Positions 22,091-37,708 are shown, numbered from the stretch's first letter. The stretch: DNA of 64,000 nt from Dehalobacter restrictus DSM 9455 (GCF_000512895.1 NZ_CP007033.1:2095001-2159000), one strand, 5' to 3'. A program made the numbers and translations. The notes: generated by a model from the sequence alone, not told the origin.

Positions 22091-23635
22091 TTACCCTCCT
22101 TTGGACAAGTTACTCTCCTTCAAGCGTATTAACACATCCTGCAGAATAGCCGTTACTCCGCTCCGGTTGCCGATGAATCCTTCGCCCTGCGCCCACAGAG
22201 AATCAAAGTGAGCTTGAAACTCCCGCACAAGCAAAAGTTGGTCAGAGTGGATCATCACCGGCTCTGGCCCGCTCCAATGATTTATCGCCACATGATGATT
22301 TTGCTTAAGCTGCCAGCAGTTGTTGGCATGAAGCAGGGTAATGTCATCGAGAATCAATAAATTGAAATTCGGAACGCAATTGAGGTAGTGGACATAGCCG
22401 CTTAAAATAGCGGCACAGCCCTCGGCGTCCAAGATTACAAAGCCCTTGTTCATAAAATACAGTCCCGGCATCCGACAAAAGCCGTCCTGCGCAATTTTGT
22501 TCAGTCTTGCCAGGGAAAGTATCTCACGGAACACCGCACCACCTTTCAGCGTTTCGTCCATACCGGACTTGAAGCGGATAAACTCCGCACTACGCCACGA
22601 AAGTTCTTCCTCGTTGTGCCCCTGGGTTCCCAAAAAGCGATCGTAGGCATACGGGGTCATATACATAGGGTTAATATTATCTTTGACCACATCAAGAGCG
22701 CCGGGGGTGGCAAACTCCGAATAGATGATTTCCAGGATGTTGCGGGAATAATCGTCGCCGTAAATATTCAGCACCGGTTGGGCGTAGCGAATCGTCTGCT
22801 CAAAGCTCTTTTGCGTTTCCTGGACAAAAGCCGCGTCACTAATGATCATTGCCACGGACGGAGCTGCATTTTTCGGTGTTTCGGTAATCAGCACCGCGTA
22901 TTTTTCGGGAATGATAAGGTGCATCTGATTGGTGACGGTCTGCGTCAGGCCATGCACCACCGACAGCCGGATATGCCCCGAAACCAGCGATTGCATATAG
23001 GTGTCGATCAGACGGGACATCGCCTGCGTATTGCCCGAAATGCAGACTAACAGCCGGATGCGCAGTTTGCTCTTGGCAATCATGTGCAGGAGCAGTCGGG
23101 ACACGTCTTCGCTGACCACAGTGGCGATCTCGTCATTAGAGAGAAAAATATCCACACCGCTTTCATCAGCCAGCTCCGCTAAAAGCGGCTCCAGACCAAG
23201 GGCAATATCCAAATACCCGATTTTGACCAAACTTTCGGAATCATTGACGGAGAATGTCCGCGTTTTTTTCAGTATGCTTTCTTTGGTGACCAAAGCAGAC
23301 GGTGAGCTTCCAAGATTGCGGCGGAGAGCTTCGCCGTCGCTTGCCAACCACATGATCAGGTTTTGCTTGGTACGATACACGGTGGAAATATCGGTGGGAA
23401 GCCCGTCTTTTTCAAACTGTGCTTTTAGCCATTCGATGTCATAGACGCGCTGGCTGCGTGCCAGTATGTATTCGGCAAGCGCATCCATTGGTACGCTTGA
23501 CGCCTTAAGCAGGCGCTGCCCGTTCAGCCACCGGCTGACTAGAGAGGGGTCAACCATGAGCGCCTTGGCCAGTTCATTATTGGAAATGCCGAAATAGTCC
23601 ATCATTAATTTTAGTTTTTCGGTAGGTTGCATCAT
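22091..23635 (-). CDS. XRE-type regulator with large unidentified domain
   Basis: A 514-residue protein. Residues 1-45 form an HTH (FGISNNELAKALMVDPSLVSRWLNGQR). The remaining roughly 450 residues match no family I recognise and look globular and cytoplasmic, with mixed alpha/beta patterns such as LNIYGDDYSRNILEIIYSEF and FNLLILDDITLLHANNCWQ. It lies between two lipoprotein genes, all co-oriented. It is a candidate regulator of the island and might bind one of the shared operators; that is inference. Confidence 0.7.
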   Translation of the reverse strand: MMQPTEKLKLMMDYFGISNNELAKALMVDPSLVSRWLNGQRLLKASSVPMDALAEYILARSQRVYDIEWLKAQFEKDGLPTDISTVYRTKQNLIMWLASDGEALRRNLGSSPSALVTKESILKKTRTFSVNDSESLVKIGYLDIALGLEPLLAELADESGVDIFLSNDEIATVVSEDVSRLLLHMIAKSKLRIRLLVCISGNTQAMSRLIDTYMQSLVSGHIRLSVVHGLTQTVTNQMHLIIPEKYAVLITETPKNAAPSVAMIISDAAFVQETQKSFEQTIRYAQPVLNIYGDDYSRNILEIIYSEFATPGALDVVKDNINPMYMTPYAYDRFLGTQGHNEEELSWRSAEFIRFKSGMDETLKGGAVFREILSLARLNKIAQDGFCRMPGLYFMNKGFVILDAEGCAAILSGYVHYLNCVPNFNLLILDDITLLHANNCWQLKQNHHVAINHWSGPEPVMIHSDQLLLVREFQAHFDSLWAQGEGFIGNRSGVTAILQDVLIRLKESNLSKGG

Positions 23636-23713: not shown

Positions 23714-24613
23714 TTAGCGATGATCATTTAGCGTTCCTGTTCCTGTAATCTTGGCAATGTCCCCACCAAAATAAGCATACAAGTCGATTGTCCCGTTATT
23801 TATCAGGGAACCGGTTTCGTTATATAAACTCCCGCCATCCTTGACGGAGATAAAGCCGTTGTTTGTCAGGGTGCCAAGATTTTTAAACTCCGAGCCTCTT
23901 TCAATAAGCAGTTGTCCACCATTATCCACGATATAATTACCGTTATTGTCGGCACTGCACATACCGGAACTGGCCGTTCCGCTGCTTCTTACTGTCACCG
24001 AGCCGTTGTTGATGAAACTGCAGATACCGCGATTAAAGGTACCCTTTACGATGATTGCCCCATCATTTGTAATAGAGCCTCCCACCGGAATGAATTCGTC
24101 GCTGATGGTGAGTGTAGTTCCTTTTTTGATATATATTGCCAGGTCATCTTCGCGTTCGTATTCGAGCTTGCTCGTAATTTCCATATCAGAGCCGACATTG
24201 ATCACCGTAATCTTTGTATCTGCCACCGCAGTCTGAAGTTCGGCAAAGCTGGACACAATGATCTCACCGGAATCCTGTGAGACAGGTTCCGGTGACTTCG
24301 TGGGTTCCGGCGTTGTTGCTTTAGGCGTTGCGGCCTTCGGCGTTGTAGCTTTTGGCGTTACAGCTTTCTGAGGTGTCACGGTTTCGATTGGTTTTGTGGC
24401 TTTAGAATCACCTGAAACAGGTTCCTGAGTCTTGTTCGTTTCCGACGTTACGACTTTCTCGACCGTTCCTTCGGCTTTTTGCGGATTTTCGGTTTCCGTT
24501 GAAGCAGGATTCTCCGTAGCAGCGGGATTTTCCGTATTGGATGCCTTCCCGCAGCCGGTGAACAATATGGTCATTAGGCAAACCAATACTAAGATTAAAA
24601 TTGTCTTTTTCAT
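23714..24613 (-). CDS. Lipoprotein with TPKA repeats and a beta-helix-like C-terminus
   Basis: A protein of about 299 residues with signal MKKTILILVLVCLMTILFTGC (lipobox FTGC). A Thr/Pro/Lys/Ala-rich linker with repeats of the form TPKAATPKATTP spans about residues 75-110. The C-terminal region has recurrent Asn-Asn-Gly turns (ITNDGAIIVKG, FINNGSVTV, LTNNGFISV, LINNGTIDL), one rung each, as in right-handed beta-helix/adhesin folds. GGAGG lies 7 bases before the chosen ATG. The gene starts just below the shared promoter module at 24651-24711. Confidence 0.72.
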   Translation of the reverse strand: MKKTILILVLVCLMTILFTGCGKASNTENPAATENPASTETENPQKAEGTVEKVVTSETNKTQEPVSGDSKATKPIETVTPQKAVTPKATTPKAATPKATTPEPTKSPEPVSQDSGEIIVSSFAELQTAVADTKITVINVGSDMEITSKLEYEREDDLAIYIKKGTTLTISDEFIPVGGSITNDGAIIVKGTFNRGICSFINNGSVTVRSSGTASSGMCSADNNGNYIVDNGGQLLIERGSEFKNLGTLTNNGFISVKDGGSLYNETGSLINNGTIDLYAYFGGDIAKITGTGTLNDHR

Positions 24614-24650
24614 GATCATTCCTCCAAAATTTTATTTATTTTTGTCAACC

Positions 24651-24711
24651 TGTCATTGACAAATCCATCATATCAAGCGATAAACGGGAAAAGGTGTGCT
24701 GGCTGCACACC
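24651..24711 (-). promoter_or_regulatory. Shared promoter-operator module, copy 1
   Basis: Reading on the minus strand: palindrome GGTGTGC-N5-GCACACC (24693-24711), then at fixed distance a -10 TATGAT (24667-24672) with ACCTTT 17 bases upstream as a poor -35, then 4 bases later TTGTCAATGACA (24651-24662), a perfect 11-base palindrome at its core. Copy 2 at 33772-33833 has the same elements at the same spacings. It drives the lipoprotein/XRE/lipoprotein operon. Confidence 0.7.
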
Positions 24712-24723
24712 TTTTCCCGTTTA
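24681..24723. terminator. Long hairpin terminator overlapping the operator
   Basis: A perfect 19-bp stem TAAACGGGAAAAGGTGTGC with its complement and loop TGGCT. It is followed by TTTTTG on the plus side; on the minus side the core stem GGTGTGC/GCACACC is followed by TTTT. It ends transcription of the upstream gene (24776-25399) while containing the GGTGTGC operator. Confidence 0.65.
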
Positions 24724-24775
24724 TTTTTGAAAGACTTCTCCAGTTCGTCAAAACCGTCCAAAGACGTAAGAGCAA

Positions 24776-25399
24776 CTACGTGATTTCCGAGAGTTTACCA
24801 ATGATATATTTTGTTTTCAAGGTTTCATTTTCATTTCTACGGCATTCTTTTTGCTTACAGAGTGCCAAAATAAACACAAAGCCTGTCAGTCCGAAAAGTG
24901 CCAGCAAAATACTGATCAGGTACAGACTGCTTTCATGGAAAATGCGAACCACGCTAACCGAAAGAACAATATAGAATACGACCATAGCGGAAATCAGTCC
25001 CACGCCCCACGGGAGAATGTTCATGAGCCCCATAATATAAGCTGTGACCAAGAGTCCTGCTGATAATACGGCAACAATCCAATGTTTCAGGTAGGAGGCC
25101 GTAGGGATTTCACCGACACAGCCATCACAAAGGGCGGCTCTGACACTGCCTTTTTTCCTGAAATGCGTCCTGTCTGCCAAGGTGGAATGTTCATATACCT
25201 TATGCGTTTGCAGACCATACTTCTCAATTACGCGGCTGTCCGGAGAATATACAATCTCGCGGCGGGTATAGATATCATATTTGTCTATATCGTCACACCA
25301 GCATTCCTTTTCTTCACCACACTTTCCGCAGCGTGTGAATTCCCGATGCAGTGTTTTCTTCTTGAGCATATCACTTTCCATTTGTTTCGTTTGTTTCAT
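24776..25399 (-). CDS. Membrane protein with zinc-binding cysteine pairs
   Basis: A 207-residue protein. A cytoplasmic N-terminal half has cysteine motifs CGKCGEEKECWC (about residues 23-34) and CDGC (about 92-95), likely one zinc site each or together. The C-terminal half has three to four hydrophobic helices (HWIVAVLSAGLLVTAYIMG, VGLISAMVVFYIVLSVSVV, SLYLISILLALFGLTGFVF). No family recognised. It is the last gene of the central operon and ends before a strong hairpin. GGAGG precedes the ATG. Confidence 0.72.
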   Translation of the reverse strand: MKQTKQMESDMLKKKTLHREFTRCGKCGEEKECWCDDIDKYDIYTRREIVYSPDSRVIEKYGLQTHKVYEHSTLADRTHFRKKGSVRAALCDGCVGEIPTASYLKHWIVAVLSAGLLVTAYIMGLMNILPWGVGLISAMVVFYIVLSVSVVRIFHESSLYLISILLALFGLTGFVFILALCKQKECRRNENETLKTKYIIGKLSEIT

Positions 25400-25548
25400 G
25401 TTTTACCTCCGTTCATTTGCACCATACGCATAATCCTGCCTACAGCCAGTCCAGCCATAGCTGTTTTGACATAGTTCAGCGCCCAATGCTTGATTGTATT
25501 CTCTGCTCAAGAATTGCGGTGTTCCTATTTCAAATAATATTGACATAT

Positions 25549-26694
25549 TTATGTATGAGGTTGTATCAAAGTAAGGTAACGATCACCATGATCGTCTTCA
25601 TCGCCGTGGTCGACATGCATTAAATACGTCCTGTGCTGTTGTGCCTGGGCCTGCTCTCTATATTCGTCAGGGAGATAAGGGCTTTTATACAGTTCATGGA
25701 GTAACGACATGGCCAGGATGTTTTCTTCGGTCACCTTCTCCCGGCAGGTATCCTGTGCTACAACGAAAGATTCCAGCAGTTCGATAAACTCTACGTTAAT
25801 TAAGGGGGCAAGCTGATCCACGCCGAGAGGATCTCCGTAATACACCGCACTTCCGCTGTGATTACTGATGATTTTACTGATCTCATAATATGGCGCATTG
25901 AACTTCCGGGGGCGCAGTTCGTCCAATTCCGATAGCGCCTCTCCACGAACCGCAGCGTTGGTTGACAACGCCTGCCTGATGCATTCCCGGATGCGGACGG
26001 AACAATCCTGTCGCGTACTTTTCTTTTTCTCAAAAAAATCGTCGTTTTCCTCCAGGTCAATCTCAGCTTGAGAGTGGGCGTCATAATCGTGCCTTTCGGC
26101 GAGTTCCTTTTGGTAGCACATGATCTCCCGCGAAGCATAATCAAAAGAACGATCATCCGCACTTATCTGGCGCAGCACGTCAATATTGCCAACTCTTCGC
26201 AAAAGGTCGGCCTTGAGAAGCAAAACCTTGCGGCGTTTTCTTTTGGTATAGCATTTGGGCAGCAGCTGATCCACTAAAGCTAAGCACCTGACGCGCAGCC
26301 TGGCGGCATTTTCTATGTCTTCCTCATCATCGCATACCCAGGCCGCGCACAAATAATTGCGGATACTGCCGGCGAGGTCTTTTCTTCGCTCTAAATACAG
26401 CGCGTATTTTTCAAAGGTAAGTGCGAGCTCCGGCAAAGTATCCGACCCTTTAGTCTCCGCATAGAGCTGCCTGAGTACCGTTTCCTTCAGGCGGGGCTTT
26501 TTCCGGATGTCAGCCGCCACATAGCCGCAATGGGGACATTCCTGGACCCAGACTTTCATCGTAGAGCGCAGCATCTCCGCGGGACGAAAATCCAGATCCG
26601 GCTCTCCGAACACGCTGTAGGAGCCAAGCTCTGTCTGCACACTCGCTTTCCCGCAGACGGCACAGACTACTTTTATTTCCATAAATGTGGACAT
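25549..26694 (-). CDS. DUF2225-like zinc-ribbon/TPR protein, paralogue A
   Basis: A 381-residue protein. The N-terminal zinc ribbon uses CAVCG (about residues 11-15) and CPHCGY (about 53-58), as in DUF2225 proteins, and is followed by a helical TPR-like region (ALTFEKYALYLERRKDLAGSIRNYLCAAWVCDD). The C-terminal 200 residues are helical and specific to this copy. It overlaps the 3' end of its paralogue by 22 bases, with GGAGGTG before ATG. I infer a protein-binding scaffold role. Confidence 0.72.
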   Translation of the reverse strand: MSTFMEIKVVCAVCGKASVQTELGSYSVFGEPDLDFRPAEMLRSTMKVWVQECPHCGYVAADIRKKPRLKETVLRQLYAETKGSDTLPELALTFEKYALYLERRKDLAGSIRNYLCAAWVCDDEEDIENAARLRVRCLALVDQLLPKCYTKRKRRKVLLLKADLLRRVGNIDVLRQISADDRSFDYASREIMCYQKELAERHDYDAHSQAEIDLEENDDFFEKKKSTRQDCSVRIRECIRQALSTNAAVRGEALSELDELRPRKFNAPYYEISKIISNHSGSAVYYGDPLGVDQLAPLINVEFIELLESFVVAQDTCREKVTEENILAMSLLHELYKSPYLPDEYREQAQAQQHRTYLMHVDHGDEDDHGDRYLTLIQPHT

Positions 26695-27356
26695 GGCGGC
26701 ACCTCCATTTTGGACAATAGCTTGGGATGTTCCTCAATACTGTGGGCTGCTTCGTCTGCCAGCAGCGCAAGCTCTTTTTCAAAAATCAGCTGCCAGCGGT
26801 CGCGCTCATCCAAGGCATCATCTTTCTCATTCATCTCTAGTACTGCTGCAAACCTGCCCATACGCCGTAACAGGTCGGCTTTCAACAACACATACCGGCA
26901 TCTTTGGCTTTTTAGCACAGAGCTGGCCAGATCATGCGCAAAATCGAGGGCAAAACGTCGCATGGTACGCGCGCGGGTGGCCTTCTTCATATCGTCATAG
27001 ACCCAGGCGGCATAGAGAAAATGATCGCAGGCATCGGGCGAATTCCCTTCATGCGAAAGGTAGCAGGCATATTTGGCAAAACGTGCCGCCAAGGGAGCAT
27101 CGGTCAGCTCGTCAAACGGTTGATAACACTGTTTAAGTTTAGCCGCAGTCTTATTTGCCGGCAAAGTGATGTTCCTTTCGATATATCCGCAGTTTGGGCA
27201 TTCTTGAAGCCAATACTGCATCGTATAGCGCAAGGACGGCGCCGGTCTGCCGTCCAAATCCGTCCCGCCATCGGTACTAGACGAGCCGAGTCCGGTTTGC
27301 CGGCTTTTTTCGCCGCAGACAGCGCAAGTAACTTCATACTCTGCTAGGGTACTCAT
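26673..27356 (-). CDS. DUF2225-like zinc-ribbon/TPR protein, paralogue B
   Basis: A 227-residue protein starting MSTLAEYEVTCAVCG. It has the same ribbon (CAVCG then CPNCGY) and helical repeat region as the next gene (ARFAKYACYLSHEGNSPDACDHFLYAAWVYDD), so the two arose by duplication. I took the ATG at 27356 because it overlaps the previous stop (ATGA) and is where homology to the paralogue begins; a longer frame upstream is spurious. Confidence 0.72.
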   Translation of the reverse strand: MSTLAEYEVTCAVCGEKSRQTGLGSSSTDGGTDLDGRPAPSLRYTMQYWLQECPNCGYIERNITLPANKTAAKLKQCYQPFDELTDAPLAARFAKYACYLSHEGNSPDACDHFLYAAWVYDDMKKATRARTMRRFALDFAHDLASSVLKSQRCRYVLLKADLLRRMGRFAAVLEMNEKDDALDERDRWQLIFEKELALLADEAAHSIEEHPKLLSKMEVPPCPHLWK

Positions 27357-27913
27357 TGTTGGCGCTCCTTTTCGTTTAAAGCAATAAATTCCAGCGCGGC
27401 TTGGTCGGTCAGCTTGTTCACTGTGTCTTGATGAACGTCGGAAATTTCCACCGCATAGGCGTGGCGAAAGCCGTCGCACTGCTTGGCTTGCTCTAAATAT
27501 CGTTCTTCGCCCGTTCGATAGAAAAGGTGAAGCCAGATATACTGCGCCTCCCAAAGCTCCGGACAGTCCTTAAAATTGGGGGTGTAGGGGTGGATGGCGA
27601 TATCCAGGAGCAGTCTTGCCAACAGCTCATAGCTTTCGGCGGAGTCCTTATTCTGTACGGCCTGTCTGGCCATACCCAGTGCCACGTCATACTTTTCAGC
27701 AGCATCAGCAAACAGGTCTCGGGCAGCATTACTTCTCGCCATCTCATTACATTCGCAGAACTCGAAGTGTTCACAGCCGTGACAATCCACGGAACCATAT
27801 TCAAAGCCGCAGGATAATGATCCTTCCCTTGGTGCTTCTTCCAGCTCCCGTGCCCTTTTTTCACTGCCTTCGGCCTCCGCAATCAATTCTTTCAACGAAC
27901 TATCAGGCATCAT
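27353..27913 (-). CDS. Hypothetical Cys-rich helical protein
   Basis: A 186-residue protein without a family I can name. It has a cysteine cluster CGFEYGSVDCHGCEHFEFCEC near residues 34-54, likely a metal site, then a helical TPR-like region (DLFADAAEKYDVALGMARQAV, ESYELLARLLLDIAI) similar in style to the DUF2225-like neighbours. Translation is coupled at both ends by ATGA overlaps. GGAGG lies 7 bases before the ATG. Confidence 0.65.
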   Translation of the reverse strand: MMPDSSLKELIAEAEGSEKRARELEEAPREGSLSCGFEYGSVDCHGCEHFEFCECNEMARSNAARDLFADAAEKYDVALGMARQAVQNKDSAESYELLARLLLDIAIHPYTPNFKDCPELWEAQYIWLHLFYRTGEERYLEQAKQCDGFRHAYAVEISDVHQDTVNKLTDQAALEFIALNEKERQQ

Positions 27914-28047
27914 GGGGGTGCCTCCGTTTCTTGGTGTGGAAAAGATTTGTCAGATTCTTCGTTAAGAAATATATAGTCATGGCGTTTTCCGCAGCGCTTA
28001 CAGACACAACTATCCCATTGATGACCAAACAAACATTTTAACGACAT
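27910..28047 (-). CDS. Small zinc-ribbon protein (45 residues)
   Basis: A short gene between the HEAT-like and Cys-rich genes. It starts MSLKCLFGHQWDSCVCKRCG and ends in an acidic, Pro-rich tail with TGA overlapping the next ATG by four bases. CxxGHxWxxCxCxxCGxxxH is a compact zinc-ribbon motif; the same motif occurs in the membrane zinc-ribbon protein at 33349-33702 and, from memory, in other bacterial HEAT-repeat proteins. Overlap, motif and operon position support it as a real gene. Confidence 0.7.
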   Translation of the reverse strand: MSLKCLFGHQWDSCVCKRCGKRHDYIFLNEESDKSFPHQETEAPP

Positions 28048-28077
28048 ACCAACACCTCTTTCTCCCGGACGTGTGTT

Positions 28078-29016
28078 TTATTCATCAGCAGCTTCAAACC
28101 CAAGCGGCACATAGTATTCCGCTGCGACGTTTTTATCGGTGTGCGAATCATCCTCGTACGCAACCTGATAGGAAGACCACTCGAAATAACAAGCTCCGTA
28201 TGACGTTTCATCGATGTGCCGGGCTTCTGTTTTGGCATTATGTTTTTTGATGTAGGCGCGCCACGCGCCGCTGCAGTACATCGCCTGAATATAGTGTGCT
28301 GCCTGGAGATTTTGCTTTTCTTTGACCAGATAGAACAGCATTTCAATAATATGGTTGTATTCGCCCTCCCACTGCTGCTTTTGGTTTTGATAATCATCTT
28401 CCGCCTGATTGACGATTGCTCTGAAGGTGTCGTCCCTATAAAAATCCCACAACAAGCCGGAGATTTTCGATAGTTCTCCCCAATACCGCAGATCCATTAG
28501 CGCGTCAATTGTCTCTCGGCTGCAATACGTTTTCCATCTGTCAGGCTCGATTGTTTTAAGCATTTGCAGGACGGCCGGCATATTCTTTTCATTGGAGTTC
28601 CTGGCCTTTTTAGTAAGCACCGCCCGTAAACCAGCAGGATCCACAGTATCACGCAGCTTACTGAACGCTGTTGCTGAAAAATGGATGTTCGCGTTTAAGG
28701 CAATATTGAAGAGTAACTCTGGTTTTGTGATGCGGGGCAGCAGACTGCTGTCCCCATTGACAAGGGCTAACTTTGCCAGCAGGCTTTCGTCGGTTATCTT
28801 GGTGATAGCTTTATGACGTTCTTCATGTAAACGCGTATGCAGCGCCACCTCCATTAACTTGCTTTCGTCGGAAAGCCTTTCGATGGCCGCCAAGCGGGCA
28901 CTGCCATACGCTTCCAGTGCCGCCTGCTGCAAAAGTTCCTGATCATCCATTTTACCGATGGCGGCAATCGCTTTTTTCTCGTTTTTGCTTCTCCATGCAG
29001 GTCCGAAGAAATTCAT
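28078..29016 (-). CDS. HEAT/LRV-like repeat protein
   Basis: A protein of about 312 residues. The N-terminus (MNFFGPAWRSKNEKKAIAAIGKMDDQELLQQAALEAYGS) and the next segments follow a repeating pattern of [A-x-x-K-(I/L)-x-D-x-x-L-L-x-x-(I/A)-A], as in HEAT or leucine-rich-variant repeats. The C-terminal 130 residues are different and Tyr/Trp rich (YIQAMYCSGAWRAYIKKHN, ACYFEWSSYQVAYEDD). Three proteins of this operon share the repeat pattern. Likely a scaffold or substrate-recognition factor for the adjacent radical SAM protein. Confidence 0.7.
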   Translation of the reverse strand: MNFFGPAWRSKNEKKAIAAIGKMDDQELLQQAALEAYGSARLAAIERLSDESKLMEVALHTRLHEERHKAITKITDESLLAKLALVNGDSSLLPRITKPELLFNIALNANIHFSATAFSKLRDTVDPAGLRAVLTKKARNSNEKNMPAVLQMLKTIEPDRWKTYCSRETIDALMDLRYWGELSKISGLLWDFYRDDTFRAIVNQAEDDYQNQKQQWEGEYNHIIEMLFYLVKEKQNLQAAHYIQAMYCSGAWRAYIKKHNAKTEARHIDETSYGACYFEWSSYQVAYEDDSHTDKNVAAEYYVPLGFEAADE

Positions 29017-29056
29017 ACTCCCACCCACCTCTCATCACCTTACATTGCAACCTCTT

Positions 29057-31243
29057 TTACAGTCTTTCTGCCAGCTGCAGAAGCATCGCTTTTCTTGCCG
29101 AGCAGTCAAATTCGCCGCTGTCGGGGTTTTTCTTATCCTTGACCCACGCTTTGCACATCCCACCGCAGAGGTAACGCACCCGGCATCCTTGGCACTTTTC
29201 ATTGGTATCCACATGGTGGCGGGAGAGATCTTTAAACGCTTCATTTTGTAAAATGCTCTCCAGTCCGTCCCGGATGTTCCCCAGCCGCTTATCCGTACCG
29301 CACCAGGCATAGCATGGATAGGCGCCGCCATCCGGCTCAATATAAAGATTTTGCCCCAGCCCGCAGGTATACCGGGCGGCGAAGGCACTGGTAATATCGC
29401 TCTCTTCCCCACAGAGAAAATCCTCTTCGCTTGGCGTATTTAGCGTATTTGATGTACTCGGTGATCTTAGTGTGCTCTCCGATCGGCCCAAGGGCAAAAC
29501 CGGACGCAGGCGGACTTTTTCTATCCCCAGCTGCCTGGCCAGCGCATAAACGGCCGCTCCTTCCGGGCCGTCCCGCTGACTCTTCGCCAGGGTGGCGCAG
29601 AGCCCGACTTTTTTGATGCAGCCCAGTTCTTTAAGGAGCTGCAGATTCGAAACGGCTTTTTCGTAGGAACCTTGGCCGCGCCTGGCGTCGTGAGAAGTCT
29701 TATCGCCGTCAATGCTGACAATGATCTCCGAAAACACCTCGCCCAGAACCGCCAGGCGATCCTTCCCGATATCAAGGCCAAGAGAAGTGCGCAGGCTGAG
29801 GCGCATTCCTTTAAGATTAATATCGCGGAGCCAGGCCAGCACGTTATCGATATCACTGTGAATCAGCGGTTCGCCGCCGGTAATGACGACAGCGTGGAAG
29901 CCGTTTTGCCGGGCAGCCTGTACGGCAGACCAAATATCCTGAGCCCTCATCTCCGGCATTTCCCGTTCGCCGCCGCGGGCGTAACAATGGTCACAGCGCA
30001 GCGGGCAAGCGAAGGTAATATGTAAATACAGCTTATTCAGGCGGTCTTGCCGGATATAATCGGGCGCCCACTTTTGACCCCATTTCAGTGCCCATTTGCG
30101 TTTATAGCGGTTTACCTCCTGGTCGAACGGATGCGGAAGATCGCCTGCCATAGCAAGCATTGGCGCCTCCTTTTCTGAAAGCCGCTTGGTCATGACACCG
30201 CCCATCTCCAGAGCCATCCCCTGTGAGATAGTATCATAGACCGCTTGATAGGCCCCGCAGTATGGATCTTTTTCGCTGCCCTTCGCCAGCATATTGTAAA
30301 GGCAGCCGCCATGGCAATACGCCGTATGCGGACAAGTGCCGCAGGTGGTCTCGGCATTTTGTTGCTTTTCAGCCAAACGCCGGAAAGCGGCGCTGTTTAC
30401 GATATTGGTCTCTGACGGGAGCTCACGGACATTCCCAAGCGAATATTCCTCTTTCCCGCAAAACCGTTGGCAGGAATAGATCCCGCCGTCCGGGGCGATA
30501 GCGGCAAACTTGCCGAGGCAGTTAAAGAACGTGCACACGCTGCCTTTCCTGTCAAAGCAGCCCTTAACCATGGAATCGATTGTTCCGACCCTGTTGCCGG
30601 ATGTCCTTTCCCTGTATACAGCTAAGGTATCAAGCAATACCTTGTCCATATCATCCACAGAAGCGCTCAGTTCGCTTGGGAGAGCGTTCATCGGCTGCAC
30701 TGCGCCATGTATCGCGTAGGGGATATGTTCATACGCAAAAAATTCAAAAACTTCCTTGGCTCTGTCAGCAAAGGCGGGCGTGAAAGTGCAGATGCAGTGG
30801 GTATTGATGCCGTTTTCACGCAAACGCCGAATCCCCGCCATCGTTTTTTGAAAATATTCCCTGCCGCGCTGGACATCGCACATCTCTTCGAATCCGTCCA
30901 GGCTTGTGCCGATACGGATATCGTATTTCCGGATCAGAGCGATCATCTCGTCGGTGAGCGCCCAAAGATTGCTCTGCAGGGAGAGCCGCAGTCTTAAACC
31001 AAACCGCTCGCGCAGCATCGGCAAAATGTACTCGTAATAGCCTTTTTCTGCCAACAGCGGTTCACCGCCGTGAAACGTAAGATTTATGCTGCCATCTTTG
31101 GGAGCAATGTTATCTATAAAGTCTATGGCCTCTCTGACGCACAGCATCGTTTCGCCCCGGTTTGGCCCGAAGCAATAACGGCAGGATGCCTGACATTCCA
31201 TCGTTGGCAGGAGCATGAAGTTTCGCGGTCTGAATTCAAACAT
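29057..31243 (-). CDS. Tandem radical SAM-SPASM protein (two complete units in one chain)
   Basis: A 728-residue protein with two AdoMet radical domains. Unit 1: CQASCRYC (CxxxCxxC, near residue 17) and the SAM-binding FHGGEPLL, then a SPASM-like cysteine-rich region ending CPHTAYCHGGCLYN. Unit 2 begins near residue 415: CPLRCDHC, TGGEPL, and a SPASM region with CGLGQNLYIEPDGGAYPC and CRVRYLCGGMC. Each SPASM should bind auxiliary 4Fe-4S clusters, so the chain could hold up to six. SPASM enzymes modify peptides or proteins. The start ATG overlaps the upstream stop (TGATG). No precursor peptide is obvious nearby, so a protein substrate is possible. Confidence 0.88.
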   Translation of the reverse strand: MFEFRPRNFMLLPTMECQASCRYCFGPNRGETMLCVREAIDFIDNIAPKDGSINLTFHGGEPLLAEKGYYEYILPMLRERFGLRLRLSLQSNLWALTDEMIALIRKYDIRIGTSLDGFEEMCDVQRGREYFQKTMAGIRRLRENGINTHCICTFTPAFADRAKEVFEFFAYEHIPYAIHGAVQPMNALPSELSASVDDMDKVLLDTLAVYRERTSGNRVGTIDSMVKGCFDRKGSVCTFFNCLGKFAAIAPDGGIYSCQRFCGKEEYSLGNVRELPSETNIVNSAAFRRLAEKQQNAETTCGTCPHTAYCHGGCLYNMLAKGSEKDPYCGAYQAVYDTISQGMALEMGGVMTKRLSEKEAPMLAMAGDLPHPFDQEVNRYKRKWALKWGQKWAPDYIRQDRLNKLYLHITFACPLRCDHCYARGGEREMPEMRAQDIWSAVQAARQNGFHAVVITGGEPLIHSDIDNVLAWLRDINLKGMRLSLRTSLGLDIGKDRLAVLGEVFSEIIVSIDGDKTSHDARRGQGSYEKAVSNLQLLKELGCIKKVGLCATLAKSQRDGPEGAAVYALARQLGIEKVRLRPVLPLGRSESTLRSPSTSNTLNTPSEEDFLCGEESDITSAFAARYTCGLGQNLYIEPDGGAYPCYAWCGTDKRLGNIRDGLESILQNEAFKDLSRHHVDTNEKCQGCRVRYLCGGMCKAWVKDKKNPDSGEFDCSARKAMLLQLAERL

Positions 31244-32547
31244 CACAATCCCCTTCTTTCAAATCGGCGATCGAAAAGCCATACTTCCGGCAAATCCACA
31301 TGCAGCCCGGGGTCATTTTTATCGCTTTTCATTCGCGGCCGAAACGGCTCTGTTTCATACTTCTTTAAGACATCATGAAATAATCCCGCCTGATAGATTT
31401 CCCGCAGAATAGCCATATCTCCCTTTGCTGGAAACAAATGGTCTTTATTTCTGGCGATTAGGGTTTCCACGAGTTCCATTGTCAAATACTCCTGCCAGTT
31501 TTCGCAGATTGTGCGAAGCCGGTCAAACGCCGTTTGGGGAAGAATATCTTTTTCCATCAGTGTAACAAGCGTTGCTGCATCACGCAGTTTTTGAATCGCC
31601 AGATAGTCGCCTCTGCCGCCGTTTAAAGCGACCTTTGCCAGACAAGCCTGATCGTACAGTCCCTCCATGGCGCTAAGTTCTATCAGAAAATCATTCGTTC
31701 GCATGACGATATCCGCTAGCAGCTCCTGCTCAGTAATCTCTTTAAGGGCGGCTTTCCTGATCCTCTCGTGTTGCGCGTTTAAGACCACATCGCAGATTCG
31801 TTTTTGATCTGTCATTCCTCCCAAGGCCAATAAACAGTCGTATTCAGTCGTCTCGCTCACCGCTATCTCTGCCAGGCGTGCATCATCCTGCAGCCGGAGC
31901 AGGGCGTATAATTGTTCATCGGAGTTGCCGTTTTGGGCATAGTGCCGGAATACGCTCTTATCCTTAATCCTATCGCGCAGGTGTTTGTACTGAAGAAGTC
32001 CGCTGTTCTCCATCACCGCATCACGCAGCTTTTCATCGTCCGTCAATTTTGCAGCGGCACTTTCCCTGTCTCCTGCCGCTTTGCCCGCTGCAATCCGATA
32101 CAAAAGCTCCTGATCGGTCAGCCGTTTCATCGCCTCGATACGTACCGAGTGGAAATCGCTGCCGGTCAATTCAAAGAGCCTGTCTTGATCGGCGGTTTTC
32201 ATCTCTTCCCAAATCTCGTCTTCTTCAATATAGCGTACGGTAAATTTGTTGGGCGGAAAGTCCTGATGATCCTGGACGTCGCCGAAGCTTACGTCTTCAT
32301 GCTCCCAAAGCCCGCATCCTTCATAAGTACTGACCTTCTCCCGGAAACGCCTGGACCTGTATATCCGCAGCAGCGTGTCGCGTGCTTCTTTGCTGTAAAG
32401 GCCGGAAAACGCCAGCCTGGCCAGCTCATCAATACGCTCATCCGTAGGAAAATTGAAAGCCTGCTCAAAATATTCCGTGTCATATTTCTTCGCTTCTTCC
32501 GCAAAATGCGCCCGTCTGAGAAAGTCTGCGCTTCTGTCTGTCATCAT
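31243..32547 (-). CDS. HEAT/LRV-like repeat protein (434 residues)
   Basis: A long helical repeat protein. Recurrent units read like VRIEAMKRLTDQELLYRIAAG, AAAKLTDDEKLRDAVME, IRKAALKEITEQELLADIV and EGLYDQACLAKVALNG, that is, a repeated A-x-x-x-(L/I)-T-(D/E)-x-x-L-(L)-x-x-I-A core. This is the leucine-rich-variant/HEAT pattern that makes extended solenoids for protein binding. No enzymatic motif. It is translationally coupled to the tandem radical SAM gene, so the two products probably act together. Confidence 0.72.
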   Translation of the reverse strand: MMTDRSADFLRRAHFAEEAKKYDTEYFEQAFNFPTDERIDELARLAFSGLYSKEARDTLLRIYRSRRFREKVSTYEGCGLWEHEDVSFGDVQDHQDFPPNKFTVRYIEEDEIWEEMKTADQDRLFELTGSDFHSVRIEAMKRLTDQELLYRIAAGKAAGDRESAAAKLTDDEKLRDAVMENSGLLQYKHLRDRIKDKSVFRHYAQNGNSDEQLYALLRLQDDARLAEIAVSETTEYDCLLALGGMTDQKRICDVVLNAQHERIRKAALKEITEQELLADIVMRTNDFLIELSAMEGLYDQACLAKVALNGGRGDYLAIQKLRDAATLVTLMEKDILPQTAFDRLRTICENWQEYLTMELVETLIARNKDHLFPAKGDMAILREIYQAGLFHDVLKKYETEPFRPRMKSDKNDPGLHVDLPEVWLFDRRFERRGL

Positions 32548-32563
32548 GTTCCCCTCCCCATTA

Positions 32564-32998
32564 CTATCTGTTATAAGGAGCTAGCCTAAAGTCGGTAGAA
32601 TCACCATCCAAAATTTCTTTTTTCTCATTTTTATATATATGCTGGCAATATTTGCACTTTTGCTGATAATACTGTGTCGTCATCGGGACATAATAGTCGT
32701 TGCCGATATTATTGGAAAGAATCAATCTTTCTCCGGTCTCCGACCATGTTTTACTTTCAATTACCTGGCTTTGTCCGCAGAGCGGACATGAATCACCGTC
32801 AATAAGCTCTTTCCCACCGTTTAGTTTTATCACAGCTGCTTCACGCGCCTGTCGGCATTCACCTTTCATTGCCGCTTGAACAAGCGTTGCCTGGTCGGTC
32901 AGCTTTTCAACGGCTTTCAATGCTTTGTATTCATTCTTGCTCAGCCAGTCCTTATTTTCGTTTTTTCTCATCCATATCTGTTTAAATATTCCCATCAT
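32564..32998 (-). CDS. Short repeat protein with C-terminal zinc ribbon
   Basis: A 144-residue protein. The N-terminal 60 residues contain one HEAT/LRV unit (KNEYKALKAVEKLTDQATLVQAAM, then AREAAVIKL) closely like the start of the protein at 28078-29016. The C-terminal half has CPLCGQ and CKYCQH, a four-cysteine zinc ribbon. It combines the two motif types that recur across this operon. GGAAGGGG precedes the start. Confidence 0.68.
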   Translation of the reverse strand: MMGIFKQIWMRKNENKDWLSKNEYKALKAVEKLTDQATLVQAAMKGECRQAREAAVIKLNGGKELIDGDSCPLCGQSQVIESKTWSETGERLILSNNIGNDYYVPMTTQYYQQKCKYCQHIYKNEKKEILDGDSTDFRLAPYNR

Positions 32999-33035
32999 GT
33001 TTCCCCTTCCTCCTTCGTTTCAGGATATTCCATAC

Positions 33036-33266
33036 TTATTTATCTGTCAGTATTTCATAGGATCTTGGCAGTCTCTCTTTGCTGTCGGAATCAATCCGCA
33101 GTAATGAAGCAGCGGGAATCACCACCTCTTCTTCCGCCTGTCTTTCCAGCACCAGCAGCTTCTGCCGCAGCTCCTCTGCTTCGGCTCCCCGGCTGTCGGC
33201 ATAGTTTGCTAATGCTCCCAAAGCGATAACTATGATTACTGTCATCCCCAGCACAAGTCTTTTCAT
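33036..33266 (-). CDS. Small membrane-anchored coiled-coil protein
   Basis: A 76-residue protein: an N-terminal hydrophobic anchor (LVLGMTVIIVIALGALA) followed by a charged coiled-coil segment AEAEELRQKLLVLERQAEEE and a polar tail. It has an upstream GAGGA ribosome site. No family recognised. Confidence 0.55.
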   Translation of the reverse strand: MKRLVLGMTVIIVIALGALANYADSRGAEAEELRQKLLVLERQAEEEVVIPAASLLRIDSDSKERLPRSYEILTDK

Positions 33267-33348
33267 GCCTTCATCCTCTTTCAGGCCTTTATTTTTTCTT
33301 CGAGTAGTTATGGCTCTATTTATTGTCGCTTGACGTCATCTGTTTCGT

Positions 33349-33702
33349 TTAGTTTTCGCCAATCTCTTTGTCTGGGTTACACTTGCGGCAGCGCATATGG
33401 TACTGCTGCGTTTCTATCATGCCACCAACGCCGCAAAATTCACAGTCCAGCAGCTCATTCCCCCCGCAATGCGGACAAACCTCCTCTACCCACACGTAAT
33501 AGCTCTCCCAGTCATGATTCTCAAAGCCGCATATGGTGCACCTGCACTCGGTTTCATCCCAGGCGTGGACGCATTCTTTTTGCCTGCGAAGCCGCTTTCT
33601 TTCCTTGGAAAAATCACCGATCTTCTCGACAAAAAGTGTTATTTGTGAAATTACCACAATCAGTACTAAAAATCCTGCTGTTCCGATCAAAACGTATTTC
33701 AA
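33349..33702 (-). CDS. Membrane-anchored zinc-ribbon protein
   Basis: A 117-residue protein. A hydrophobic N-terminus (YVLIGTAGFLVLIVVISQITLFV) anchors it. The soluble part carries the HxW zinc motif CVHAWDETECRCTICG with a following HDW, then CPHCGG, CEFCG and CRKC, at least two zinc sites. The first motif is the same type as in the 45-residue protein at 27910-28047. It starts with TTG preceded by GAGGTG. It is the first gene below promoter module copy 2. Confidence 0.68.
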   Translation of the reverse strand: MKYVLIGTAGFLVLIVVISQITLFVEKIGDFSKERKRLRRQKECVHAWDETECRCTICGFENHDWESYYVWVEEVCPHCGGNELLDCEFCGVGGMIETQQYHMRCRKCNPDKEIGEN

Positions 33703-33771
33703 GATCTATCACCTCACATACGCCTCGTAATATTACGCTATGCTCTCCTATTTGCTCTCGTTCTTGACACA

Positions 33772-33833
33772 TTGTCATTGACAAGTAAATCATAACAAAC
33801 AAAAAAAATAAAAAGGTGTGCAACCTGCACACC
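33772..33833 (-). promoter_or_regulatory. Shared promoter-operator module, copy 2
   Basis: On the minus strand: GGTGTGCAG-N3-GCACACC (33815-33833), ACCTTT and TATGAT (33789-33794) with a 17-base gap, then 4 bases and TTGTCAATGACA (33773-33784; TTGTCATTGACAA on plus at 33772). Distances between all elements equal those in copy 1 at 24651-24711. It would drive the large central operon 33702 to 24776. Confidence 0.7.
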
Positions 33834-33861: not shown

Positions 33862-35622
33862 TTATTCATAGATGATCTCGAATAGTGCTTTTGGCGCAAT
33901 GGCTTCCGCTGCCTTTTTCATGGAAGTATCCACTACTACCTGCTGTAAACCAGGAAGCGACAAGAGCGGCGAAAGGTCACGGACCCTCGTTCCGGAGACG
34001 TTCAAATAGACCAGACTCTCATGAGCTTCAATACCGGTGAGGTCAGTCAGCTTCGTCTCATTGAGATATAGTTCCTCTAATCCTTCCACTCCGGCCAGAA
34101 AAGTCAGCGAATCAAAGTCCGTTTTCATAATTTTGAGTGTCCTTATCGTTTTTCCCTTCAGATACTTATACGAATCCGTATCATTGGAAATATCCAGAAA
34201 GTCAAATTTTGTACGTCCGGCCAGTACCGCAGGATCGTAATGGTCTGCATCATTGAGGTCAAGCAGTTCCAAGCCTTTCAGGTTGATGACCGGGGAAATG
34301 TCGGCCACCATTGTTCCGTTTAAGCCAATTGATTTTAGCTTTTCAAGCCCCGCTAACGATGAGATATCCGAAACCGGATTATGTCTCAGTTCAATTCTTT
34401 CCAGTGACGCGAGCCCTGCAACCGGCGAAATATCACTGATATTTTGTGCCGAAAGGCAAAGTTCCCGCAGATTGGGAAGAAAGGCTAAATCAGAGAGCGA
34501 TTCAATTGTCCCGTTGTTCTGATTCCAACCCTGCTGCAACCGCTCAAATTCCGTGACATCTGCGGTACTCTTATCCGCAAATATGTATAACTCGGTGACA
34601 GATTCAAGGTCGGCGGACGTCAGCGTGTCTCCAGCGCTTTTTCCAAGTTCAGTGCGGACAGCCTGTTCAATGAGAGGTTCGGCAAATTGTACAGAACCAG
34701 CAGTGGGTATTACTTTCGCGGGAGCATAGGCTTCATTTGATGCAAGAAATGACGGCTTGGTAATCCATCCCTGCCAGAAACCGATTCCGATAGTCAATAC
34801 GAGCAGCCCCGCAATAAGACCTGCCGTTCTTCGCCATTTGCTTACGTTTTTATGTAAGAGCGCGCGTTTGAGCGTTTGGGCGTCACGGTAACGATACTCC
34901 GGAGAAAAGGCCGTACATTTCTTGATAACCGCCCCCAGCCAACGGTTCTTAATGCTTACCTCGCCGGGCTTTGTTTCTCCGGTCAACATCCAGCACAAAA
35001 CCACGCCCAAAGAAAAAATATCGGCACGGCAATCCGTTTGGGCAAAGCCGTACTGCTCCGGCGGAGCAAACTCCATTGTGCCAAAAAACACGGTGTCCCT
35101 GCTTGCAGTTTCATCATAAACACGGGAAATGCCGAAATCGATGAGCTTGATTTTACCATGATCATCAACAACGATATTCTGCGGTTTGATATCCCTGTGG
35201 ATAATGGGCGGTGTTTGACCGTGCAGGTAGGAAAGAATATCGCAAAGCTGTGTCCCTATGGAGATAATCTGTGGTTCGGAAAGCGTGTTGCTTTTTAAAT
35301 ACTCGTTCAAAGGAACGCCTTCGGCATAGTCGCGTACGACACAAAGCATCGCCTCGTTTTGATACTCTCCCACAAATGCCGGAAGTCCATCATGACGGAG
35401 CGCCCTTAACAAATCGCTTTCATTTTTCCGGGAAAGAAGTGATTGATCCGTATAGCATTTTGCCACAAGGTAGACATCTGATTGACGATCTCTGACCAGC
35501 AATGTTTCACCCATTTGGTTATGCGCCAAGCACTCCATTTGTTCATACTTTTGCAGGAAGTCTTCGGGGAAGCGGCTGTCGTCAAAGCTTAGCAAAAAAC
35601 CGTCAACAGCCGACTTATTCAT
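33862..35622 (-). CDS. Transmembrane Ser/Thr protein kinase with leucine-rich repeats
   Basis: A 586-residue protein. Residues 25-260 are a Hanks-type kinase: Lys55 in VAKCY, HRDIKPQN (142-149), DFG (162-164), and APPEQYG as the activation/APE region. All catalytic residues are present. A transmembrane helix spans about 266-286. The extracytoplasmic part (about 370-586) consists of internalin/SDS22-like LRRs (LPNLRELCLSAQNISDISPVAGL, GLEKLKSIGLNGTMVADISPV). It should sense an external ligand or wall state and phosphorylate cytoplasmic targets, possibly the adjacent regulator. Its start overlaps the preceding gene's stop. Confidence 0.88.
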   Translation of the reverse strand: MNKSAVDGFLLSFDDSRFPEDFLQKYEQMECLAHNQMGETLLVRDRQSDVYLVAKCYTDQSLLSRKNESDLLRALRHDGLPAFVGEYQNEAMLCVVRDYAEGVPLNEYLKSNTLSEPQIISIGTQLCDILSYLHGQTPPIIHRDIKPQNIVVDDHGKIKLIDFGISRVYDETASRDTVFFGTMEFAPPEQYGFAQTDCRADIFSLGVVLCWMLTGETKPGEVSIKNRWLGAVIKKCTAFSPEYRYRDAQTLKRALLHKNVSKWRRTAGLIAGLLVLTIGIGFWQGWITKPSFLASNEAYAPAKVIPTAGSVQFAEPLIEQAVRTELGKSAGDTLTSADLESVTELYIFADKSTADVTEFERLQQGWNQNNGTIESLSDLAFLPNLRELCLSAQNISDISPVAGLASLERIELRHNPVSDISSLAGLEKLKSIGLNGTMVADISPVINLKGLELLDLNDADHYDPAVLAGRTKFDFLDISNDTDSYKYLKGKTIRTLKIMKTDFDSLTFLAGVEGLEELYLNETKLTDLTGIEAHESLVYLNVSGTRVRDLSPLLSLPGLQQVVVDTSMKKAAEAIAPKALFEIIYE

Positions 35623-36073
35623 CTTTTTTCTTTCTCCCTAGCAGTGTAATTCCGTGAACATGCAATGTTTCCTGGGTTTCCATATAAGTCATGTGATGTT
35701 CCAGACAATATATAATGGCGGCATCCCGGTCAATTTTGGGATACAGCGCATTACTCCGGGCAATGCGAAGCAATTTCTGGGTGTTTTCTGTGTCCATTTC
35801 AAAACCGATCGCCAGTTGAATTGCCTTTTCCCTCGACGGTTTTCTTGTGCCGTTAAAAAGCTGATGCCCGAAGGTGCGTTCAATACCGGCTTTGTTTATG
35901 ATACGTTCTTTGACCTCGCCTCTTTCCGCACACAAAGCAGTTATATATTCATGAAAAGTAGGAACATCGACCGATTTTAAATCTTCTTTAATAAATTTCT
36001 CCAGATTTGTGGCTTTAAACAGTCTGCGAAGCAGGGTAATTGTTCCGACCTCTTTTTGTTCTTCATCAGCCAT
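35615..36073 (-). CDS. HTH regulator paired with the kinase
   Basis: A 152-residue protein with a central XRE-like domain (INKAGIERTFGHQLFNGTRK, then PSREKAIQLAIGFEMD) and a helical C-terminus (ARSNALYPKIDRDAAIIYCLEH). From memory, this domain type recurs next to bacterial Ser/Thr kinases in Firmicutes. It overlaps the kinase start by eight bases, so the two are made together. A TATAAT-like -10 lies upstream near 36241-36246. It is a candidate for binding the shared operators. Confidence 0.72.
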   Translation of the reverse strand: MADEEQKEVGTITLLRRLFKATNLEKFIKEDLKSVDVPTFHEYITALCAERGEVKERIINKAGIERTFGHQLFNGTRKPSREKAIQLAIGFEMDTENTQKLLRIARSNALYPKIDRDAAIIYCLEHHMTYMETQETLHVHGITLLGRKKKDE

Positions 36074-36484: not shown

Positions 36485-37231
36485 TCAGATAGTTTTAGCC
36501 AAACGGAATCCCAAGTCATCAATGCAAAATGACGGATGACCACGGCGACGGCATGTAGCGCCGCATCCTCTAGCCGATTCGGCCCAACTCCCTCCACGAA
36601 AAATACGGTATGGACCATATGTTTTTTCATCATACAAATCCCAGCACCATTCCCATGAGTTTCCTAACATATCGTATAATCCCCATTTATTTGGCTCTTT
36701 TTTACCTACCTTGTGAATCCTGCTTTCCGAATTTTCACTGTACCAGGCAATATCCTGAATTTCCCCATACCTGTATCCAGTTGATCCCGCTTTACATGCA
36801 TACTGCCACTCTGCATCTGTTGGCAATCTGTATCCAACGGCATTCCAATCACAAAATACATTACTGCCATTGTGGTCAAAAGTATAACACTCTGTCAATC
36901 CACGTTCCTTTGAAAGCAGGTTGCAAAATGAAATAGCATCGTACCAAGATACATTCACCATTGGAATAGAATTCAACTCTACGTTGACCAGTGCTTTTTG
37001 GGTTATTACTCCATATAGACTTTTTGTCACAGGATATTTGGCAAGAAAAAAAGGTTTTATATCGACTTTTCTTTCTGTTTCTGTCAAATTGCCTTTTAGC
37101 CCAGGTATGCTCATTTTGGAATCTGTACTAATCCATTTCTGTTCATCCCAATAATCCCTTAAATGCTCCATACCACCAGGAATAGGTACCATCAGGCAAT
37201 CTAAATAATTCTTTATATTGCTATCCATCAA
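36485..37231 (-). CDS. Formylglycine-generating-enzyme/sulfatase-modifying-factor fold protein
   Basis: A 248-residue protein of the FGE-sulfatase family. Signatures: VPIPGG at the start, VNVSWYDAISFCNLLS, YRLPTDAEWQYACKAG, WGLYDMLGNSWEWCWD, and the terminal FRGGSWAESARGCGATCRRRG to GFRLAKT. It may oxidise cysteine or simply use the C-type-lectin-like fold for binding, as many bacterial members do. It has no reverse transcriptase nearby, so I do not call it a retroelement target. The 250 bases upstream contain a decayed reading frame (YKKDDVPTPEWTDEGKIL, minus strand near 37290-37390). Confidence 0.82.
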   Translation of the reverse strand: MMDSNIKNYLDCLMVPIPGGMEHLRDYWDEQKWISTDSKMSIPGLKGNLTETERKVDIKPFFLAKYPVTKSLYGVITQKALVNVELNSIPMVNVSWYDAISFCNLLSKERGLTECYTFDHNGSNVFCDWNAVGYRLPTDAEWQYACKAGSTGYRYGEIQDIAWYSENSESRIHKVGKKEPNKWGLYDMLGNSWEWCWDLYDEKTYGPYRIFRGGSWAESARGCGATCRRRGHPSFCIDDLGFRLAKTI

Positions 37232-37533: not shown

Positions 37534-37551
37534 TGCATATTTCGGACACAT

Positions 37552-37647
37552 CCGGACACCGATTCCGGCAGTATCCGGACAGCGTAACGGGCACATCCGG
37601 ACAGTAAAACGGAATTATCCGGACAGCATTTCGGCAGCATCCGGACA
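37552..37647 (+). repeat. IS21 left-end periodic repeats
   Basis: Five CCGGACA sites start at 37552, 37575, 37597, 37619 and 37641, 22-23 bases apart: the multiple transposase-binding sites typical of IS21 ends. Confidence 0.85.
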
Positions 37648-37708
37648 CCTTGTCGAGTTAGTAAGCTAACTGGTACCCTTTCTTTAGAAGAAAGAAAGGG
37701 GCAACACG

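Follow-up and report, generated by a model that had tools for sequence, protein, structure and literature searches.

The window analysed here, a 64,000-nucleotide stretch of the Dehalobacter restrictus DSM 9455 genome (GCF_000512895.1, NZ_CP007033.1:2095001-2159000), contains two copies of a compact promoter unit built around a palindrome. Comparison of genome sequences indicates that this unit accompanies the genes for a small, predicted DNA-binding protein (XRE, of the Cro/C1 fold) and a partner kinase in many anaerobic bacteria of the Bacillota and Chloroflexota. The elements of the unit, their fixed geometry and their co-occurrence with XRE-kinase genes across phyla are evident in the genomes compared. 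We consider it rather likely that each copy is an activator-dependent promoter belonging to a self-contained XRE-kinase signalling module with exported proteins as targets, a switch that would probably activate genes whose products are exported or sit at the cell surface. Within this reading, we infer DNA binding and activation by the XRE protein and its control, or phosphorylation, by the kinase.

Two copies of one promoter unit in the window

The main open reading frames between 36073 and 21176 are encoded on the minus strand. Site 2 stands 3' of the kinase gene and 5' of a nine-kilobase gene set; site 1 stands 3' of that set and 5' of the genes for a lipoprotein, a 514-residue helix-turn-helix (HTH) protein and a further exported protein. 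Specifically, the features are arranged as follows:

35615 to 36073, minus strand: 152-residue XRE (Cro/C1-fold) protein, the proposed binder of the palindrome
33862 to 35622, minus strand: 586-residue Hanks-type Ser/Thr kinase with C-terminal leucine-rich repeats (LRR), overlapping the end of the XRE gene at its start codon
33833 to 33815, minus strand: site 2 palindrome, GGTGTGCAGGTTGCACACC, which also forms the core of a hairpin (11 bp, with a T-tract) that terminates the kinase operon
33794 to 33789, minus strand: site 2 -10 box TATGAT, preceded by TGT (extended -10), exactly 20 nt 3' of the palindrome
33784 to 33773, minus strand: site 2 TTGTCAATGACA, separated from TATGAT by TTAC
33764 to 33784, minus strand: site 2 start-site element, TTGTCAATGACAATGTGTCAA
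24776 to 33702, minus strand: gene set 3' of site 2, encoding a Zn-ribbon membrane protein, a double radical SAM-SPASM protein and several proteins of unknown function
24711 to 24693, minus strand: site 1 palindrome, GGTGTGCAGCCAGCACACC, the proposed XRE operator, within longer 20-bp arms at 24680-24724
24672 to 24667, minus strand: site 1 -10 box TATGAT, preceded by TGA (extended -10), exactly 20 nt 3' of the palindrome
24662 to 24651, minus strand: site 1 TTGTCAATGACA, separated from TATGAT by GGAT
24642 to 24662, minus strand: site 1 start-site element, TTGTCAATGACAGGTTGACAA, the proposed operator of the 514-residue HTH protein
23714 to 24619, minus strand: exported lipoprotein, the first gene downstream of site 1
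22091 to 23635, minus strand: 514-residue protein with N-terminal HTH_3, the proposed binder of TTGTCAA-N7-TTGWCAA
21176 to 22045, minus strand: exported protein with a C-terminal DnaJ-type CXXCXGXG zinc domain, conserved alongside the 514-residue gene in genomes G352 and G436

At both sites, the minus strand carries the palindrome GGTGTGC-N5-GCACACC, exactly 20 nt, the TATGAT -10 box, 4 nt and then TTGTCAATGACA. The downstream element is longer than TTGTCAATGACA and reaches GTCAATGACANNNNGWCAA (24660-24642 at site 1 and 33782-33764 at site 2), and the 76-nt stretches of the two sites can be aligned without gaps at 75% identity. A preliminary description of this DNA had reported two copies with one geometry; all spacings are indeed identical at sites 1 and 2, and the match between the copies is confirmed as real and stronger than that description knew. 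Two of its details need correction. Its end coordinate, 33772, is off by one, as TTGTCAATGACA of site 2 ends at 33773, and the ACCTTT that it took for a -35 box consists of the last bases of the palindrome and TTT; a -35 hexamer is absent from all 20 sites compared across genomes (0-1 of 6 matches to TTGACA).

Within the window, palindrome matches with up to three mismatches number 5, both strands of the two sites counted, against 0.20 expected by chance. Across the whole genome (2,943,336 bp in one contig), the exact palindrome is found only at sites 1 and 2, with about 0.0006 exact matches expected by chance, and the next-best match has 2 mismatches and is non-palindromic. The exact pattern TATNATN4TTGTCAATGACA is also confined to these two sites; a start-site element with a single mismatch, at genome position 1154502, stands without the palindrome. 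The palindrome is thus neither a motif common across the genome nor a repeated generic terminator, the two readings against which the preliminary description had set its own. It is absent from the 100 relatives searched, 4 of them congeners, and the longer pattern from the 60 nearest relatives.

The radical SAM and 514-residue HTH genes were not found in the congeners searched, and the region therefore behaves as an island. Plasmid records held no relative of the radical SAM protein or of the 514-residue protein, and viral contigs held none of the latter. The radical SAM protein (29057-31246, minus strand) comprises 729 residues in two tandem radical SAM-SPASM units, of which unit 1 passes the TIGR04083 cut-off (354 bits against 300) and unit 2 resembles sactipeptide maturases (StsB); its relatives in 398 Bacillota genomes do not exceed about 42% and match unit 1 only. 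A formylglycine-generating-enzyme-like protein is encoded immediately upstream of the XRE-kinase operon (36485-37231, minus strand). Tandem 22-nt repeats with a TCCGGACA core (37539-37669, plus strand) lie directly 5' of an IS21-like transposase gene (37709-39271, plus strand), after which comes a second DDE transposase (39318-40727). Together, repeats and transposases form the probable mobile edge of the island.

The palindrome unit in other genomes

Two surveys, one starting from the palindrome and one from the protein, link the unit to its gene neighbours. For the palindrome-first survey, GTDB contigs were scanned for the bare palindrome, with no promoter in the pattern, which yielded at least 120 loci. 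Among the matches listed, 11 loci, from Clostridia and two Anaerolineae, have XRE and/or kinase homologues adjoining the palindrome; a twelfth locus, L095, is a coding false positive and is not counted with them. Again among the matches listed, TANNNT stands at exactly +20 of 10 of the 11 linked palindromes, compared with 3 of 216 elsewhere (Fisher p ~4e-14), and no offset besides +20 has more than two TANNNT at the 11 linked loci.

For the protein-first survey, the XRE profile was searched against 398 Bacillota genomes, 8 of which encode close relatives, always with the kinase gene next downstream on the same strand (in G352, a 44-codon remnant of it). The palindrome, 20 nt and TANNNT are present 3' of the kinase or its remnant at all eight of these co-directional loci. 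Five of the loci (the window, G352, G436, G233 and G445) were known beforehand, and three (G365, G111 and G388) were found blind; in these three palindromes, T replaces the first G. Furthermore, the unit is present at both further distinct XRE-kinase loci in contigs of the viral collection, and a fifth viral XRE relative, with no kinase directly adjoining, lacks it. The profile also retrieved more distant XRE relatives, several of them divergently paired with a kinase; the palindrome was looked for at these divergent pairs and is absent. The XRE proteins across genomes that keep the geometry are only 40-57% identical, and among the genes examined, only XRE and kinase recur beside the palindrome across loci.

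The consensus over 20 sites is AGGTGTGCAGNCTGCACACCTTT. Exact 20-nt spacing with TANNNT is kept at 18 of the 20 sites, the centre of the palindrome falls at about -42 at 18 of the 20 on the assumption of a start 6-7 nt after the -10 box, and TG precedes the -10 box at 11. The inner 12 bases of the spacer have an identity of 0.339, against 0.33 when shuffled, so that the spacer is conserved in length and not in sequence. Spacing that is conserved in distant genomes, combined with a random inner spacer, points to two separate elements held at fixed distances by selection, which supports the earlier suggestion of selection on two operators around one promoter type. At L029, L039, L068 and L081, a copy stands 5' of the XRE gene, at the XRE-kinase operon's own promoter; in L029 and L068 it comes in addition to another copy, is equally spaced and lacks a T-tract.

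Most of the genes that directly follow the units encode proteins with signal or lipoprotein N-termini, among them SLH-type proteins, a CWB2 cell-wall protein, an M23 peptidase-LRR protein, a BNR-repeat protein and a substrate-binding-like lipoprotein. The C-terminal half of the window's lipoprotein is common to SLH proteins of G233 and L080.

Candidate binders of the two elements

Genomic association makes the XRE protein the proposed binder of the palindrome. Its AlphaFold model (mean pLDDT 77) has a five-helix Cro/C1 domain, residues 37-110 of which match Cro/C1 proteins such as 6jq1 (Z 9.5, 70 aligned, rmsd 2.4); among solved structures, Cro/C1-type DNA-binding proteins match it best, but with Foldseek E-values no better than 0.04. 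Pfam HTH_31 is matched weakly, in 4 of 13 family members, and the segment IERTYGHQLFNGTRKPSRDK is strongly conserved. Judged by eye from the alignment, XRE residues show no clear covariation with the T/G change in the palindrome arm. The palindrome of G436 reads GGTGGGCTGCCAGCCCACC, and both of its copies there carry the same symmetric change, GGTGGGC...GCCCACC, between unrelated flanks; that the two changed together while the surrounding bases differ argues for one shared binder. The second G436 copy, 0.9 kb upstream of the other, precedes a TATAAT by 20 nt and has neither the TTGTCAATGACA element nor a T-tract.

The kinase has the motifs HRDIKPQN, DFG and APPE (Pkinase E 7.5e-33); it has no PASTA match and reaches 107 bits against the NCBIfam cut-off of 450 for PknB/Stk1. 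At most loci, the XRE and kinase genes are inseparable by gene context. G352 keeps the XRE gene and the palindrome, whereas its kinase gene is reduced to the initial 44 codons, and this persistence without a full kinase is in line with XRE as the binder. It also counts against the proposed module, as the kinase may be dispensable, unless the G352 locus is decaying or misassembled (MAG). The pattern coordinates in G352 contig 44 are identical to those in the public contig DHRG01000038.1 (Peptococcaceae UBA5318). In UBA5318 (L139:4355-4492), the kinase is cut after 44 codons and fused to a homologue of 25549-26694, and about 9 kb of the window's content, site 2 included, is absent.

The TTGTCAATGACA element is probably a start-site operator of the 514-residue HTH protein; in its full form, GTCAATGACANNNNGWCAA, it spans about -2 to +19. 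Two further Bacillota genomes encode homologues of this protein, G436 (64%) and G352 (80%, with a 45% paralogue in addition), and in both the composite element lies at the corresponding place with spacings identical to those in the window. Exact GTCAATGACANNNNGWCAA (GTCAATGACAN4GWCAA) is found 5 times in six genomes, namely twice in the window's genome, twice in G352, with one before each copy of the 514-residue gene, and once in G436; it is not found in the three searched genomes where the protein was not found. The four copies of the protein hardly differ in their HTH segment, which parallels the constancy of the start-site element. A structure model of the protein computed without an alignment was unusable (pLDDT 36). 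Gene context thus pairs the palindrome with the 152-residue protein and the TTGTCAATGACA element with the 514-residue protein as candidate binders.

The two elements are separable, since each occurs alone: the start-site element at the G352 paralogue, and the palindrome at the upstream copy of G436 and in G445. At the paralogue locus (L142:7857-10858), the 45% identical gene lies behind an LRR lipoprotein. G233 keeps the outer TTGTCAA-N7-TTGACAA with no detectable 514-residue gene, which counts against the link to this protein. At the palindrome promoter of G233 (L186:14807-14851), the start-site element, TTGTCAATAATAGATTGACAA, is degenerate and lies within symmetric arms of 13 bp. A stem formed by TTGTCAA/TTGACAA in the RNA of the 5' leader was considered as well; it is good in UBA5318 and G233, shorter at site 1 and broken at site 2 and in G436, and a DNA site is preferred for that reason.

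A candidate switch and its alternatives

In the proposed mechanism, the 152-residue XRE protein would bind the palindrome, AGGTGTGCAGNCTGCACACCT in consensus, as a dimer and, seated at about -42 in place of the -35, would recruit RNA polymerase to the -10 box, often with an upstream TG. The kinase would presumably set the activity of the XRE protein. The predicted targets are the genes that come next, which mostly encode lipoproteins or exported, cell-wall or SLH proteins; in some genomes the XRE-kinase operon would be a target as well. A further layer of control is proposed for the window and its closest relatives, where the 514-residue HTH protein would act through the start-site element TTGTCAA-N7-TTGWCAA. 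This protein is encoded within the site 1 unit and, to judge from the position of the element, probably represses that unit. The earlier outline of two operators, one promoter type and two HTH proteins as candidate binders is right in its main lines, though not as regards the -35. A wider version, which we hold tentatively and slightly short of an even call, is that of a one-locus system in Clostridia and Chloroflexota, in which an LRR kinase may control a dedicated XRE activator that switches on, via a 21-bp palindrome at -42, one or two promoters that lack a -35 and drive genes for exported or cell-wall proteins, with a second HTH protein vetoing at the start site in one branch.

XRE proteins are often repressors, and the XRE protein could instead cover the position of sigma region 4, with an extended -10 giving basal activity until the kinase releases it. 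The TG before 11 of the 20 -10 boxes, which can work without a -35, agrees with this, as does the site at the own promoter of the XRE-kinase operons of L029, L039, L068 and L081. We nevertheless regard repression as unlikely, as it requires no exact 20-nt spacing, yet 18 of 20 sites keep one around a random inner spacer, and no site has a -35. That the palindrome is bound by some DNA-binding protein other than XRE is improbable, given that, among the genes examined, only XRE and the kinase recur beside it and that, of these, only XRE has a DNA-binding fold.

The preliminary description had further proposed that termination of one operon and control of the next are merged in the palindrome. This suits site 2, a good terminator with an 11-bp stem and a T-tract 3' of the kinase operon, but is doubtful at site 1, and the T-tract is missing from the orthologous palindromes of G388, L029 and L068 and from the upstream copy of G436, so that termination is not the conserved function. 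An intrinsic terminator alone, with the next promoter close by accident, would fit site 2 and the position of most copies 3' of the kinase gene. It is nonetheless very improbable: a terminator could do without conservation of its stem sequence and without a set distance to a -10 box, the motif is not a terminator elsewhere in the genome, and copies stand before the XRE gene in L029, L039, L068 and L081, those of L029 and L068 without a T-tract. A recent, functionless duplication within the window would account for 75% gap-free identity over 76 nt but is scarcely credible against the cross-genome data, in which the geometry is kept where XRE proteins are only 40-57% identical, with flanks and spacers diverged.

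The preferred reading, an activator-dependent promoter, has well-known counterparts in class II promoters, such as those with CRP at -41.5 or lambda cI at PRM. The centre of class II activator sites is at -41.5 (PMC10936776). Here, too, a palindrome near -42 (the start position being assumed) replaces a usable -35 at fixed spacing from the -10 box, whereas the operator sequence, the linked kinase and the surface-protein targets differ and activation is a prediction. Controller (C) proteins of restriction-modification systems are likewise small XRE-fold regulators; in the case of C.Esp1396I, genes are turned on when the sigma subunit is recruited by a dimer at the upstream site (PMC4041747). 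In contrast, the XRE protein here is about twice as long and faces a single palindrome instead of paired C-boxes, and restriction or methylase genes are absent from the Pfam and NCBIfam matches around the window copies. The AfsK/AfsR pair of Streptomyces also combines a Ser/Thr kinase encoded near a DNA-binding activator with poor -35 recognition. AfsR, however, is a SARP-NOD-TPR protein that binds direct repeats centred at -29.5, and its phosphorylation has a modest effect on activation (PMC10936776). PASTA-type kinases (Stk1/PrkC) share the Hanks-type core, whereas the window's kinase has C-terminal LRR and no PASTA.

The open-licence papers searched contain no description of an XRE-kinase-palindrome system. 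To our knowledge, a dedicated transcription factor and target promoter have been assigned to few bacterial Ser/Thr kinases. In this module, kinase, regulator, operator and targets are co-located, and the constant, mutable geometry makes the kinase's targets testable with a simple reporter. By means of the motif, sequence alone may also suffice to annotate the targets of this kinase family in uncultured anaerobes. Distant XRE proteins of a separate set (L218-L225) are for the most part divergently paired with a related kinase, and in L225 a different palindrome, with 13-bp arms, stands before the XRE gene with TATCCT nearby.
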